Source: Bacteroidetes bacterium GWF2_35_48 (lineage in GTDB: Bacteria > Bacteroidota > Bacteroidia > Bacteroidales > GWF2-35-48). Taken from it: a stretch of 64,000 bases of DNA. A program made the position numbers and the translations under genes. The notes beneath the pieces are model-generated. The model did no database searches. It saw only the letters and a program-made list of their open reading frames with translations, and was not told the origin of the DNA. This document shows positions 16,404 through 63,533 of the stretch, one piece after another. The DNA lies in contig MEOG01000137.1 of NCBI GenBank assembly GCA_001769125.1, positions 1 to 64,000 on the forward strand. Reading direction: 5' to 3'. Within the stretch, counting starts at the first letter, position 1. Every line of letters begins with the position of its first letter.

Positions 16404-17504
16404 TTATATCGTAACTTCCATAGCTTCATCAAGCTCCTGAAATCCTGAAGAAACAACTTTTTCACCTTCCTGCAAACCTGTCAGAATCTCTATTTGCCCA
16501 TTATATGATTGCCCTGTTGTAACAAAAAGTTTTTGTGTAAGCATTTTTCCATTTTCTGATTTTACAACCCATAAATATTTTCCTTTGCTTTCAGATTGGA
16601 CATAATTAATTGGCAAAACAAAAGCATCTTTTGAAGTGTAATCATTAATTTTAAGAACAGCAACCATGTTAGCGCGGTACTCTACACCTGCTTCAGAAGG
16701 TCGTGCTTCAACAAGAAAAGTACGATTTATTGGATTTATATATTTACTGGCAAAACGAACTTTGGCATCAATTTCCTTCTCAAAATCGGGGAACAAAACT
16801 TTCACATTATTTCCTTCTTTTATTTTTGCAGTATAGGCTTCGGCAACATCTGCAATAATTTTTACAGTAGAAAAATTAACAACTCTGAAAGCTGGAAAAC
16901 CTGGGACTAGCGACTGACCTACTTTAATAGGAATATCTTCAACAGTGCCAGAAATCGGAGACTTAATTTTACTCATCTGCAATTGCTCTTCAATCGTTTT
17001 TAATTTATTTTCCAAACTCTCTTTATTATTTTTTGCAGTCAGATACTGAACTTCAGAGCCAATTTTCTGATCCCATAAATCCTTTTGTTTATTGTAAATA
17101 TCTGTTAAAAAAACAAGAGTAGATTTTAATTCTTCAATGCCTTGCTTCATAACAGCAGCATCAAGTTCTGCAAGAACCTGTCCCTGCCTTACAGTTGCAC
17201 CCTCTGTAACATAAATATGAGTAACAATGCCCATTGTTTGTGCGGTTACTGTTACATTTTCTTCACCATCTACCCTGCCCTGCACATCTACAAAATGATT
17301 AAAATCCTGTTTTTTGACATCTACAACAGAAACCTGTTTTACAAATTTATGCTTTGTTTCTGTTCCCAGTTCTGCCTCAATGGATTTTATTTCAGCAAGA
17401 ATTTTTTCTTGTTCTTTCTTCAGCGAATCAAGCCTTGCTTTCTTATCCTGTGTACAGGAAACAATTGAAAAAATTAGAACAAATACAACTAGTGTGAGTC
17501 TCAT
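16404..17504 (-). CDS. RND efflux periplasmic adaptor lipoprotein
   Basis: A 366-aa membrane-fusion protein. The N-terminus MRLTLVVFVLIFSIVSC is a lipoprotein signal with the acylated Cys at position 17. A coiled coil (about 20-50) is followed by the barrel-sandwich (biotinyl-lipoyl-like) halves (about 75-110, VTVTAQTMGIVTHIYVTEGATVRQGQVLAELD, and 165-190, KSPISGTVEDIPIKVGQ) on either side of the alpha-hairpin (about 110-165). A beta-barrel and membrane-proximal domain end the protein. It would link the permease at 12908-16282 to an outer-membrane factor. The gene order tetR, adaptor, permease on one strand indicates a regulated efflux operon. Confidence 0.9.
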   Translation of the reverse strand: MRLTLVVFVLIFSIVSCTQDKKARLDSLKKEQEKILAEIKSIEAELGTETKHKFVKQVSVVDVKKQDFNHFVDVQGRVDGEENVTVTAQTMGIVTHIYVTEGATVRQGQVLAELDAAVMKQGIEELKSTLVFLTDIYNKQKDLWDQKIGSEVQYLTAKNNKESLENKLKTIEEQLQMSKIKSPISGTVEDIPIKVGQSLVPGFPAFRVVNFSTVKIIADVAEAYTAKIKEGNNVKVLFPDFEKEIDAKVRFASKYINPINRTFLVEARPSEAGVEYRANMVAVLKINDYTSKDAFVLPINYVQSESKGKYLWVVKSENGKMLTQKLFVTTGQSYNGQIEILTGLQEGEKVVSSGFQELDEAMEVTI

Positions 17505-17530: not shown

Positions 17531-17626
17531 TGATACGTTGCGTGCAACGTATTTACTTGCCGATCGTGTATGATACGTTGCGCCTGTGCTGAGCTTGTCG
17601 AAGCATGCAACGTATTTACATGCCGA
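17531..17626. repeat. Tandem palindrome pair, one empty and one carrying a 23-bp palindromic insert
   Basis: Copy 1 (17531-17563) reads TGATACGTTGCG followed directly by TGCAACGTATTTAC. Copy 2 (17571-17626) has the same two halves separated by exactly 23 bp (17583-17605, starting CCTGTGCTGAGC and ending GAAGCA). The ATACGTTGC/GCAACGTAT arms form a 9-bp perfect dyad in both. Copy 2 overlaps the last codons of the TetR gene. It looks like an empty site beside a filled site. Confidence 0.85.
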
Positions 17627-18215
17627 GATCAATATATGCCATCCCCTTTTCTGATGCAATTCCACGGATATGGTACATAAAAAGTTCGTTAAAAACTTCT
17701 CCTGAATTATATTTTCCATCTGGAAAAAATGCTTTATCAAATAAAGTTTCAGAAAGCGCAAGATACGAACGGGAGGCTATTTCAGGATCAATATTTTTCC
17801 TGTAAAGACCTTCTTTTAGTCCTTCTTCAATATTTTTTTTAACCTGCAAAAGAATATGAGATCTTTTAAATTCAATAAAACGGGTTAACACTTCCGGATG
17901 ATATTTCTGAAGGTCGTTCAATATTACCTGAGGTACGCTACTTATTAACTTACCAACTAACTCGCTTACTTTATATAATTTTTCAATGGCATTCATTTTT
18001 TGCGCTGCCAGCCCCATAAAAAGGGTATTAAATTCTGAAATATGAAAAAATAAAACATCCTCAACGAGTTTATCTTTGTCTGAAAAAAAAGTATACAATG
18101 TTTTTTTAGAGATGCCTAGATGAGAAGCAACATCATCCATTGTAACATTTTTTATACCTTTTTTAACATAAAGGTTACGGACTTTCCGGATTACAGATTC
18201 TGTTTTTTCTTTCAT
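17616..18215 (-). CDS. TetR/AcrR-family transcriptional regulator
   Basis: A 199-aa TetR-type repressor. The N-terminal helix-turn-helix is at about residues 22-50 (VTMDDVASHLGISKKTLYTFFSDKDKLV), with a helical ligand-binding domain behind it. It is divergent from nothing and lies directly upstream of the RND adaptor and permease on the same strand, so it is the likely repressor of that pump. Its 3' end (IDLGM) falls inside the duplicated palindrome at 17571-17626, and the empty copy beyond it suggests duplication of the gene's tail. The inducer cannot be told from the sequence. Confidence 0.88.
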   Translation of the reverse strand: MKEKTESVIRKVRNLYVKKGIKNVTMDDVASHLGISKKTLYTFFSDKDKLVEDVLFFHISEFNTLFMGLAAQKMNAIEKLYKVSELVGKLISSVPQVILNDLQKYHPEVLTRFIEFKRSHILLQVKKNIEEGLKEGLYRKNIDPEIASRSYLALSETLFDKAFFPDGKYNSGEVFNELFMYHIRGIASEKGMAYIDLGM

Positions 18216-24487: not shown

Positions 24488-24580
24488 AATGCGGCTAAAG
24501 CCTTTAAATTTTTTAACCTTAATTACCATCGGCTTAAGCCGATGGTAATTAATAAATAATAGTAAAATGGGCTTTAGCCC
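24488..24580. repeat. REP-like palindrome cluster between the unknown gene and the methyltransferase
   Basis: Three palindromes lie together: GGCTAAAGCC (24493-24502), a perfect 30-bp palindrome at 24521-24550 (half-site AATTACCATCGGCTT) and GGGCTTTAGCCC (24569-24580). The first and third share the GGCTWWAGCC core. They could stabilise or attenuate the polycistronic mRNA. Confidence 0.75.
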
Positions 24581-24606
24581 CATAATAAAAAGTAACAAAG
24601 AAATAA

Positions 24607-46692: not shown

Positions 46693-46811
46693 AGCATTCC
46701 TATTCAAGTTCTGTTCTATTATGTGTAAATTTCTTGTATTGCTCCACTAAAAGGGTTTTGAAACCAGCCACGTTATTGGTAATAGAGTTCTGGTAATTGA
46801 GCTTGTCGAAA

Positions 46812-48083
46812 TTACCTGCTACCTGAAACCTGCTTAGCAGCTGCTTCTCCTGCAAGCCAACCTGTTGTAAAAGCAATTTGCAAATTATATCCTCCTGTAT
46901 CTGCATCAAAATCAAGAACTTCTCCGGCAAAGTATACGTTTTCAACTTTTTTTGATTCAAAAGTTTCCAAATTTATATCTGAAATGCTCACGCCGCCGGC
47001 TGTAATGATAGCTTCCTTAAATCCTGTGTGACCTACCACATTGAAAACAAGATTCTTAAGCCATACTCTCAGTTTTTTCCGTTCCAGTGCGCTTATTGTA
47101 TTAGCCTGTTTTTCAGAATCAAATCCTAATTCCTGCGCACAAAAGGGAGCAAGTAAACCGGGCAAAAGCAATTTCAAATAAGAACTGATTTTCATCTTTC
47201 CATGTTCATCTATTTCACGAAGAAGCCTTTGATCCAATTTCTGGTCATCAAGAGCCGGTTTTAAATCTATTTGAATTTGAACTTTTTTCTTTTCATTTAA
47301 TGAATCAACAGCTAAGCGACTTAAAGTTAGAATAATAGGACCAGACAGCCCAAAATGCGTGAACAACATTTCTCCAAACTCGCTTTGCATTTTCTTCCCC
47401 TCAACCCAAAGGCTGGCTGTAACGTTTTTTAAACTAAGTCCCATTAATTCAGACACTTTAGGATGATTAACCCGTAAGGGAACAAGAGCCGGTCTTGTTG
47501 GAATTATTAAATGATTTGTTTGTTTTGCAAATTTATATCCATCCCCGGTGCAACCTGTTGCCGGATACGATAAACCTCCCGTTGCAATAATTATTGAATG
47601 TGCTGAGAATTGTTGTTTTGGGTTGTTAATGGTTATACGCAGGTTCTTCGCAGGTTCGTCCGAAATACTAATATCCTGAACTTCAGCATTCAATAGGAAT
47701 TCAACCTTTTGCGTTTTGCAATAGGAAATTAAAGCATCTGCTACCACATTTGCATCATCACTTAAAGGAAAAATACGAGATCCGCGCTCCTCTTTTGTCG
47801 GAATATTAATTTCTGCAAAAAAATCAATAAGATTCTTTGAAAAAAATCGTGAAAACGCAGGCCTGAGCTTCTTCCCTTCCGGATGAATGCACTTTACAAA
47901 TTCAGATAATGGAGCAGTGTTGGTAATGTTGCAACGACCCTTTCCTGTTATCCTTAGTTTTCGTGCTGCCTGTGCCATTTTCTCAAGCACTAAAATACGG
48001 TTGCCCAATTGAGAAGCTCTTGCAGCGGCAATCAATCCAGCCGGTCCGGCGCCAATTATGATAATATCAAAATGCTTTTCCAT
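46812..48083 (-). CDS. HI0933/YhiN-family flavoprotein (NAD(P)/FAD-dependent oxidoreductase)
   Basis: A 423-aa flavoprotein. The N-terminal dinucleotide-binding motif is DIIIIGAGPAGLIAAARASQLG, followed by VLEKMAQAARKLRITGKGRCNITN, the HI0933 signature. Later motifs are TGGLSYPATGCTGDGYKFA and GEVLDFDADTGGYNLQIAFTTGW near the C-terminus, where FAD is bound. The biological substrate is not established for the family. The last residues (AKQVSGSR) run into repeat-like DNA, so the C-terminus may have been slightly extended. It is divergent from feoAB. Confidence 0.9.
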   Translation of the reverse strand: MEKHFDIIIIGAGPAGLIAAARASQLGNRILVLEKMAQAARKLRITGKGRCNITNTAPLSEFVKCIHPEGKKLRPAFSRFFSKNLIDFFAEINIPTKEERGSRIFPLSDDANVVADALISYCKTQKVEFLLNAEVQDISISDEPAKNLRITINNPKQQFSAHSIIIATGGLSYPATGCTGDGYKFAKQTNHLIIPTRPALVPLRVNHPKVSELMGLSLKNVTASLWVEGKKMQSEFGEMLFTHFGLSGPIILTLSRLAVDSLNEKKKVQIQIDLKPALDDQKLDQRLLREIDEHGKMKISSYLKLLLPGLLAPFCAQELGFDSEKQANTISALERKKLRVWLKNLVFNVVGHTGFKEAIITAGGVSISDINLETFESKKVENVYFAGEVLDFDADTGGYNLQIAFTTGWLAGEAAAKQVSGSR

Positions 48084-50889: not shown

Positions 50890-50955
50890 TTGTACTGTAG
50901 AATCGCTCCACCTGTGCTGAGCGAAGTCGAAGTATGGAGCGATTGCACAGTACAA
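50890..50955. repeat. Three-level nested hairpin downstream of feoB
   Basis: The outermost arms are TTGTACTGT (50890-50898) and ACAGTACAA (50947-50955). Inside them are AATCGCTCCA (50901-50910) and TGGAGCGATT (50935-50944). The centre is a 24-bp sequence (50911-50934) containing CTGAGCGAAGTCGAAG. The centre is nearly the same as the 23-bp insert at 17583-17605, but the arms are unrelated. Confidence 0.8.
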
Positions 50956-51581: not shown

Positions 51582-51790
51582 TAGTGTCAGCAAGAAAACT
51601 CATGTTTTTTGCTCACAATGTATGTGCCTGATAAGAAAACGTCAAGTTCAAGCCTGCCTGTCCGGTAGGCAGGGCTTGCGAAGACCTGAAAATTAGGAGC
51701 CTGCCTTGTCGGCAGACAGGTGTACTAATGTACATGACTACTTTTCAGGTTAAGCGTAACGATGAAATTGGCGTTTTCTTGCAGGCACTA
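51582..51790. mobile_element. MITE-like element (209 bp) with 18-bp terminal inverted repeats
   Basis: The left end TAGTGTCAGCAAGAAAAC (51582-51599) and the right end (51773-51790) match inversely at 16 of 18 positions. Inside are ACCTGAAAA (51684) and TTTTCAGGT (51742), and two CCTGCC-type palindromes (about 51652-51673 and 51700-51720). The order of inner parts parallels the element at 46518-46692, although the ends differ. It has no coding capacity. With the adjacent AT-rich DNA it accounts for the gap 51541-52067. Confidence 0.7.
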
Positions 51791-51995
51791 AATATTGATA
51801 AATTACTCCAACACTCATGATTAAAAACATGATTAAAAACATATAAAAATCTAAATTTTTAACTTCAAAATACTTATAACTCTCTGTAATAAAATGATTT
51901 GATTTTCATTTTCTCATAAAATTTCATTTATTATTATCAAGAAAAATTTATCTCACTTTTATTTTTTTTTACAAAAACCTGTTAATATTGCAACA

Positions 51996-61210: not shown

Positions 61211-61223
61211 TTTTTAAAATCAT

Positions 61224-61276
61224 AAAAAACGGTGGTTTGTATGCTGAGCGAAGCCGAAGCACAACCACCGTTTTTT
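61224..61276 (+). terminator. Terminator with the recurrent hairpin core as its loop
   Basis: Perfect 14-bp arms AAAAAACGGTGGTT (61224-61237) and AACCACCGTTTTTT (61263-61276) enclose a 25-nt loop containing TGCTGAGCGAAGCCGAAGCA. The arms make a strong bidirectional terminator. The loop is the same core palindrome seen at 17583 and 50911, with one base changed in GAAGCC. Confidence 0.85.
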
Positions 61277-61294
61277 ATTTAACCACCTGTCTTT

Positions 61295-63440: not shown

Positions 63441-63461
63441 AGTAAAAATATTATAATAAAT

Positions 63462-63524
63462 AAGATGTTCCACATCTTTATTTCAATAAAATGCTTTCTC
63501 TATACTTAAGATGTGGAACATCTT
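63462..63524. repeat. 17-bp inverted repeat, each arm itself a near-palindrome
   Basis: AAGATGTTCCACATCTT (63462-63478) and its exact inverse AAGATGTGGAACATCTT (63508-63524) flank a 29-nt spacer. Each arm can also fold on itself (AAGATGT..ACATCTT). It may be a terminator of the minus-strand gene that enters from the right, or a REP-type element. Confidence 0.7.
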
Positions 63525-63533
63525 AAGCTTATA

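Follow-up and report, generated by a model that had tools for sequence, protein, structure and literature searches.

It is not settled by what means the smallest chromosomal repeats of bacteria move. The small dispersed repeats (SDRs) of Nostoc and relatives, which Elhai et al. are said to have described in 2008, reportedly comprise eight families and are confined to a subgroup of cyanobacteria. They are reportedly 21–27 nt long, have compensatory stems and lie inside other repeats and inside their own copies; insertion via an RNA intermediate is said to have been suggested for them. Rickettsia palindromic elements are roughly 100–150 bp long, and elements of the IS110 family target REP palindromes.

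GTAG- and CGTC-tagged REPs (PMC3733652) and the REPs and REPINs of RAYTs (PMC2817692, PMC3116915) consist of a tag and an imperfect hairpin and span 20–40 nt. REPs inserted within palindromes have been described in A. variabilis, T. roseum and H. neapolitanus, and the Rickettsia elements are palindromic repeats that lie in protein genes as in-frame insertions (PMC3733652). The insertion sequences IS1397, ISKpn1, IS621 and ISRm22 transpose into REP palindromes, ISRm22 at the axis of palindromy (PMC1525189).

The window of this report is the whole analysed stretch of 64,000 nt from Bacteroidetes bacterium GWF2_35_48. One of its palindromes carries an insert of the type CYTGTGCTGAGC(N2-3)GTCGAAGYA (23/24 bp, in the following termed the 24-mer). 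The 24-mer is delimited as a unit by exact borders at many sites, by empty and filled paralogues and orthologues, by nesting and by covariation of its stem. It is probably a mobile micro-element in its own right, a non-coding mini-hairpin with a tag that is inserted as a unit without target duplication.

A palindrome pair in the window

Two copies of one palindrome are present at 17531–17626, between a gene of the HlyD type encoding a membrane-fusion protein (16404–17504) and a TetR-type regulator (17616–18215) that adjoins an AcrB-type efflux gene. Copy 1 reads TGATACGTTGCG followed by TGCAACGTATTTACTTGCCGA and contains the empty palindrome ATACGTTGC-GT-GCAACGTAT (17533–17552). The filled palindrome follows after 20 bp (17573–17615, arms 17573–17581 and 17607–17615). 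Copy 2 repeats these 33 bp with a single exchange (T/A) and is interrupted at 17583–17605 by the 23-bp insert CCTGTGCTGAGCTTGTCGAAGCA (forward strand). This insert is composed of the 5' tag CCTG (17583–17586), the stem TGC/GCA and the tip TGAGCTTGTCGAA (17590–17602). Both palindromes were delimited from the sequence and from a census of the genome. Direct reading thus agrees with the original prediction of an empty and a filled palindrome side by side, alike over 33 bp apart from one base, with a clean insert and no target duplication.

Both copies share an unusual G at the centre. Because of this G and the agreement over 33 bp, the copies probably go back to a duplication in place. A single insertion or a single precise loss would separate them, and the window pair by itself fits both. 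In the proposed course of events, a GTAG-like palindrome would have been duplicated locally and one copy would then have received the element. In 60 relatives, compared at the level of species representatives, the intergenic region is not conserved, and the single genome of the same genus has no match to the locus. An Rfam search of the window gave nothing above threshold.

The conserved motif of the insert, TGAGCTTGTCGAAG, is found three times in the window with up to two mismatches (0.21 expected; none of 100 shuffles reached three), and the insert recurs with different arms, as had been predicted. A filled palindrome of a second family, TTGTACTGTAGAATCGCTCCA/TGGAGCGATTGCACAGTACAA (50890–50955), harbors the 24-bp insert CCTGTGCTGAGCGAAGTCGAAGTA at its CA^TG dyad (50911–50934, forward strand; carets mark insertion points). 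The minimal copy GGTAAT-TGAGCTTGTCGAA-ATTACC is located at 46792–46816 (forward strand, tip 46798–46810). Furthermore, a terminator-like hairpin at 61222–61278 with the arms AAAAAACGGTGGTT (61222–61237) and AACCACCGTTTTTT (61263–61278) has a loop of 25 nt, TGTATGCTGAGCGAAGCCGAAGCAC (61238–61262), which is a related tip.

Additional repeats were observed in the window. At 24489–24583, the palindrome TTAATTACCATCGGCTTAAGCCGATGGTAATTAA is nested within the arms ATGCGGCTAAAGCC/GGCTTTAGCCCCAT and resembles hairpins beside a Y1_Tnp gene at C105:89969 (GCCATCGGTGCAACCGATGGC). Inverted copies of AAGATGTTCCACATCTT at 63461–63525 match the CAAGATGTTCCACATCTTG hairpins repeated around a Y1_Tnp-like gene at C105:176283 and are probably REPs of that gene. 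A composite repeat at 51620–51805 has the arms GTGCCTGATAAGAAAACG/CGTTTTCTTGCAGGCAC and the internal palindromes CCTGCCTGTCCGGTAGGCAGG and CCTGCCTTGTCGGCAGACAGG; parts of it recur at other loci (L001, L016).

Empty and filled palindromes in the genome

The original prediction had missed that the outer palindrome is a repeat dispersed in its own right, and many empty and filled pairs therefore exist. Family 1 has the form ATACGTTGC(AT)GCAACGTAT, with AT as the commonest empty loop. Family 2 is ATCGYTCCA^TGGARCGAT, also written GTANNATCG[CT]TCCA^TGGA[AG]CGATNNTAC, and is filled at the CA^TG dyad. An empty target form is ATACGTTGCATGCAACGTAT. Among the loci examined, 29 empty and 8 filled copies belong to family 1 and 7 empty and about 29 filled copies to family 2; many of these loci were retrieved because they resemble one of the two outer families, so that the ratios are not an unbiased census of the genome. 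The counted set of family 2 comprises 27 filled and 5 empty copies, to which two of each kind were added later. Its inserts, CYTGTGCTGAGC(N2-3)GYCGAAGYA or a nested version, measure 24 bp (19 copies), 23 bp (5) or, when nested, 48–49 bp (3). A chance pairing of the two window copies is ruled out by these genome-wide sets.

The arms covary (CGCTCCA/TGGAGCG, CGTTCCA/TGGAACG, CGTGCCA/TGGCACG, CGTCCCA/TGGGACG and CGCCCCA/TGGGGCG). In 16 distinct filled copies, 97.8% of the cells of arms and stem are paired, with a covariation of 0.371 versus 0.134 after shuffling (0/500). The arm types CGCTCCA, CGTTCCA and CGCCCCA as well as ATACGTTGC, AGACGTTGC and ATGCGTTGC are present in both the empty and the filled state. 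Since several covarying arm types are thus shared by filled and empty copies, a single founding event is unlikely.

Spread as a composite unit may account for some of the filled copies. As a general explanation, one or two insertions into an outer palindrome would have been followed by multiplication of the filled palindromes as whole (GTAG-type) REPs, the empty copies being a separate branch or precise deletions. The dispersal of the outer palindromes, the near identity of the family 2 inserts and the nested copies of one Leptolyngbyaceae genome, which look like one expanded composite, are consistent with this explanation. However, several insert-bearing arm types also exist empty, the same insert resides in two unrelated outer families and, on contig C140, within the tip of a different repeat, and in other phyla it is found in different palindromes and in genes. 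Multiplication as composites is considered rather unlikely in comparison with repeated insertion of a mobile 24-mer.

Outer stems of at least 6 bp surround 19.5% of the copies of this genome outside both families, compared to 4.4% after permutation (maximum 11.5%). The paralogous copies C99:1985 and C69:53438 have no recognizable palindrome around them.

Structure of the 24-mer

The tip TGAGC(N2-3)GTCGAA occurs 230 times in the genome and TGAGCTTGTCGAAG 61 times with up to one mismatch, versus 3 occurrences of the reversed-pattern control in either case. The element is built from the 5' tag CYTG, a stem of 3 bp and the conserved tip T-GA-GC(GNA)G(T)C-GA-A; its hairpin form, given as a single strand, is CCTGTGCTGAGCGAAGTCGAAGCA. 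By inspection, the 14-nt tip could form a T-A pair, two tandem G.A pairs, a G-C pair and a C-G pair closing a GNA loop, with one T unpaired. DNA folding predicted stable outer arms and did not resolve the pairing of the tip.

The sequence of the stem is free, with about twenty different triplets among 103 distinct copies. The three positions flanking the tip are paired in 93, 83 and 92% of these copies, compared to 47, 38 and 32% expected, and the covariation of the stem in 39 distinct copies is 0.716 versus 0.218 after shuffling (0/500). The same freedom is seen in G061, a genome of the same class that consists of one contig (rated 100% complete, 244 tips). Here the stem ATNN/NNAT varies between CC/GG, GC/GC, GG/CC and AC/GT within otherwise similar flanks. 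Head-to-head pairs of tips, TGTCATNN[TGAGC...GTCGAA]NNATCTG, about 44 bp apart, were also observed in G061. Judged by their arrangement, these pairs are REPIN-like doublets without a recognized RAYT.

In the stem, G.T wobble pairs are confined to the TGAGC strand (12 versus 0 at stem position 2; 7 of 16 in the arm-plus-stem set), which suggests that this strand folds. Folding could take place as single-stranded DNA or as RNA, and in the latter case a structured RNA would be reverse-transcribed and inserted. Reverse transcriptase domains are not associated with tip abundance, however: 8 of 17 tip-rich genomes lack them, and 7 of 16 tip-poor genomes have them. Insertion through an RNA is accordingly held to be very unlikely.

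Subfamilies of the element exist. In L344 and L342, a CGATG-tagged unit interrupts another tip at TG^AGC, and in L340 a CYTG element holds the 24-bp unit GCGTCGCACTGAGTTTGTCGAAGT in its loop. A CCTGCC-type insert was observed in the tip of a further locus (L345).

Distribution in other bacteria

When species-representative genomes were scanned for the full 24-mer, at least 117 stretches with it were obtained from at least ten bacterial phyla. The hosts include Bacteroidetes, Cyanobacteria, Chloroflexi, Nitrospina, Spirochaetes, Fibrobacter, Acidobacteria, Lentisphaerae, Margulisbacteria, Neomarinimicrobia, Proteobacteria and others. Among the matches listed, 16.2% of the cross-phylum copies have outer stems of at least 6 bp (permuted mean 4.4%, maximum 10.3%). 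Most cross-phylum copies lie outside recognizable palindromes, as do C99:1985 and C69:53438, and targeting of loops is thus a preference. One Aquimarina copy has a stem of 18 bp, and the Fibrobacter copies are enclosed by CCCGC...GCGGG. Matches in phage records were short and partial or coding, those in plasmid records were short (three records were opened), and at least one of nine matches in viral contigs is apparently coding or due to chance.

Further independent sets of empty and filled sites are present in two Dokdonia genomes, in a third Bacteroidetes genome and in tex orthologues. In Dokdonia, at least two sites are filled at CCGCTTTCGCGAAA^GCGG and dozens of empty CCGCTTTCGCGAAAGCGG sites are found in the same genomes; the insertion point is inside a palindrome, off its dyad. 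In the third genome (G374), a tandem unit of about 110 bp exists both with and without the insert.

The element is nested in its own copies in 6 of 17 genomes searched and in the genome studied here. Examples are CTTGTACTGAGCGGA^24^GTCGAAGTA in Desmonostoc, CCGAGCGG^24^AGTCGAGG in Margulisbacteria, CCCGAGCGG^24^AGTCGAGGG in Spirochaetes and TGAGCAAG^24^TCGAA in Neomarinimicrobia. It is present and self-nested in genomes of Nostocales and Leptolyngbyaceae. Provided that the outer copy is an ordinary tip, the cases of GAGCGG^24^AGTCGAGG would set the unit at 24 bp with unambiguous boundaries.

Insertions in genes

Open frames of at least 200 amino acids contain 40 of the 123 cross-phylum copies among the matches listed; these are open frames, not confirmed genes. 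A set of filled and empty sites is provided by a protein that is presumed to be Tex-like from its sequence rather than from a family search. Its filled form, D-TST(x)LST-(R/S)-EKAQK(F/Y)RDYFDW, is present in three genera (Winogradskyella sp. SP247, Lutibacter sp. B1 and an uncultured member of the Flavobacteriales). The empty orthologues of W. psychrotolerans and an Allomuricauda read TDEKAQKFRDYFDW or EDEKAQKFRDYFDW. Filled and empty forms differ by eight codons, with the neighbors on both sides intact. Conserved proteins such as Tex can acquire 8-residue inserts from the element. Two paralogous genes of Cyclobacteriaceae YHN15 (L133, L198) were observed to carry the 24-bp insert inside NNAFD^AM, a motif that was read as the N box of a histidine kinase.

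The predicted movement of the palindrome into hairpin loops is supported by the sets of families 1 and 2: further empty and filled pairs, whose lack throughout the genome would have spoken against it, do exist. However, 2 of about 40 copies of this genome lie elsewhere than at a hairpin center, and so do the Dokdonia sites and most insertions in genes.

Search for the mobilizing enzyme

The 24-mer is built like a REP: a 4-nt tag precedes an imperfect hairpin of about 20 nt on its 5' side, the ends are precise and the target is not duplicated. This anatomy is reminiscent of a CYTG-tagged REP moved in trans as single-stranded DNA by a RAYT or an IS200/IS605 (Y1 HUH) enzyme, to which the original prediction had pointed. 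The genome has 10 Y1_Tnp matches. However, at none of about 40 Y1_Tnp loci, taken from this genome and 15 other tip-rich ones, does a tip repeat directly adjoin the gene; tips are present at a single locus, in this genome (L118 = L122), about 600 bp away. At many of these loci the gene is surrounded by hairpins of other kinds, which are often repeated. Furthermore, G061, the genome richest in tips (244), has no Y1_Tnp match. The proposed link to these enzymes is not supported by these data, and mobilization by them is regarded as improbable. A full-length element sharing its ends with the 24-mer, as an IS200/IS605 or MITE derivative would have, was not found around the Y1_Tnp loci.

At L118 (1000–1950, contig C140), arrays of GCACTCCTACGGAGTGC-type hairpins were observed around the Y1_Tnp gene. 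Arrays and gene are clearly a RAYT/REP pair.

Preferred targets of the 24-mer in this genome would be exposed loops or dyad centers of hairpin-forming repeats, its own tip included. Other sites, among them genes, would serve as well, 24 bp being tolerated as eight codons. Insertion would occur on extruded or single-stranded DNA with the hairpin loop as the target. Strand transfer into such loops is favored because of the preference for dyads, the missing target duplication and self-nesting. An enzyme acting in trans, probably not a Y1/RAYT transposase, would carry out this step, with the RNA intermediate as the alternative route.

SbcCD-type nucleases open cruciform tips at the dyad. If tips were opened in this manner, short hairpin fragments could be joined in without a dedicated transposase, which accounts for dyad insertion in unrelated palindromes, self-nesting and the missing target duplication. 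Capture of fragments leaves the conserved tip, the 24-nt unit with its fixed tag across phyla and the clean in-frame insertions in genes unexplained, and there is little to recommend it over insertion of a discrete mobile element. A broader reading is offered tentatively and may well be wrong. The 24-bp sequence, probably among the smallest mobile units, would have spread through many phyla via extruded hairpin loops, including its own, by means of a conserved cellular enzyme or an unrecognized one, and no dedicated transposase would have been involved.

In culturable Dokdonia, Winogradskyella, Algoriphagus and Nostocales, the unit is defined to the base together with its borders and its empty and filled sites, so that mobility and the mover are directly testable. 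For the 24-mer family, the results argue against RAYT, the default answer.

Comparison with known systems

In the openly licensed literature, the letters of the tip and the outer palindromes gave no relevant match, and no description was found of the cross-phylum range, of base-exact empty and filled dyad sets or of the lack of a RAYT link. The 24-mer appears to rank among the smallest known mobile elements.

Like the REPs, the 24-mer is an imperfect palindrome in the range of 20–40 nt with many copies and a covarying stem. It differs from them in its tag, which is CYTG instead of GTAG or CGTC and differs again in other subfamilies, and in combining a free stem and a conserved tip with no linked RAYT. 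The outer palindromes of this genome, on the other hand, look GTAG-like. IS1397, ISKpn1, IS621 and ISRm22 are full-size insertion sequences with a transposase, whereas the insert described here is non-coding and has 24 bp. In-frame insertion, seen here in open frames and in the Tex-like protein, is a feature shared with the Rickettsia palindromic elements as described; the 24-mer is shorter, is found in unrelated phyla and nests in hairpins.

The SDRs of Nostoc, as reportedly described, resemble the 24-mer in length (23/24 nt), dispersal and self-nesting, and part of the present description may already be known for Nostoc. The SDRs are reportedly restricted to their cyanobacterial subgroup, whereas the 24-mer extends across at least ten phyla.
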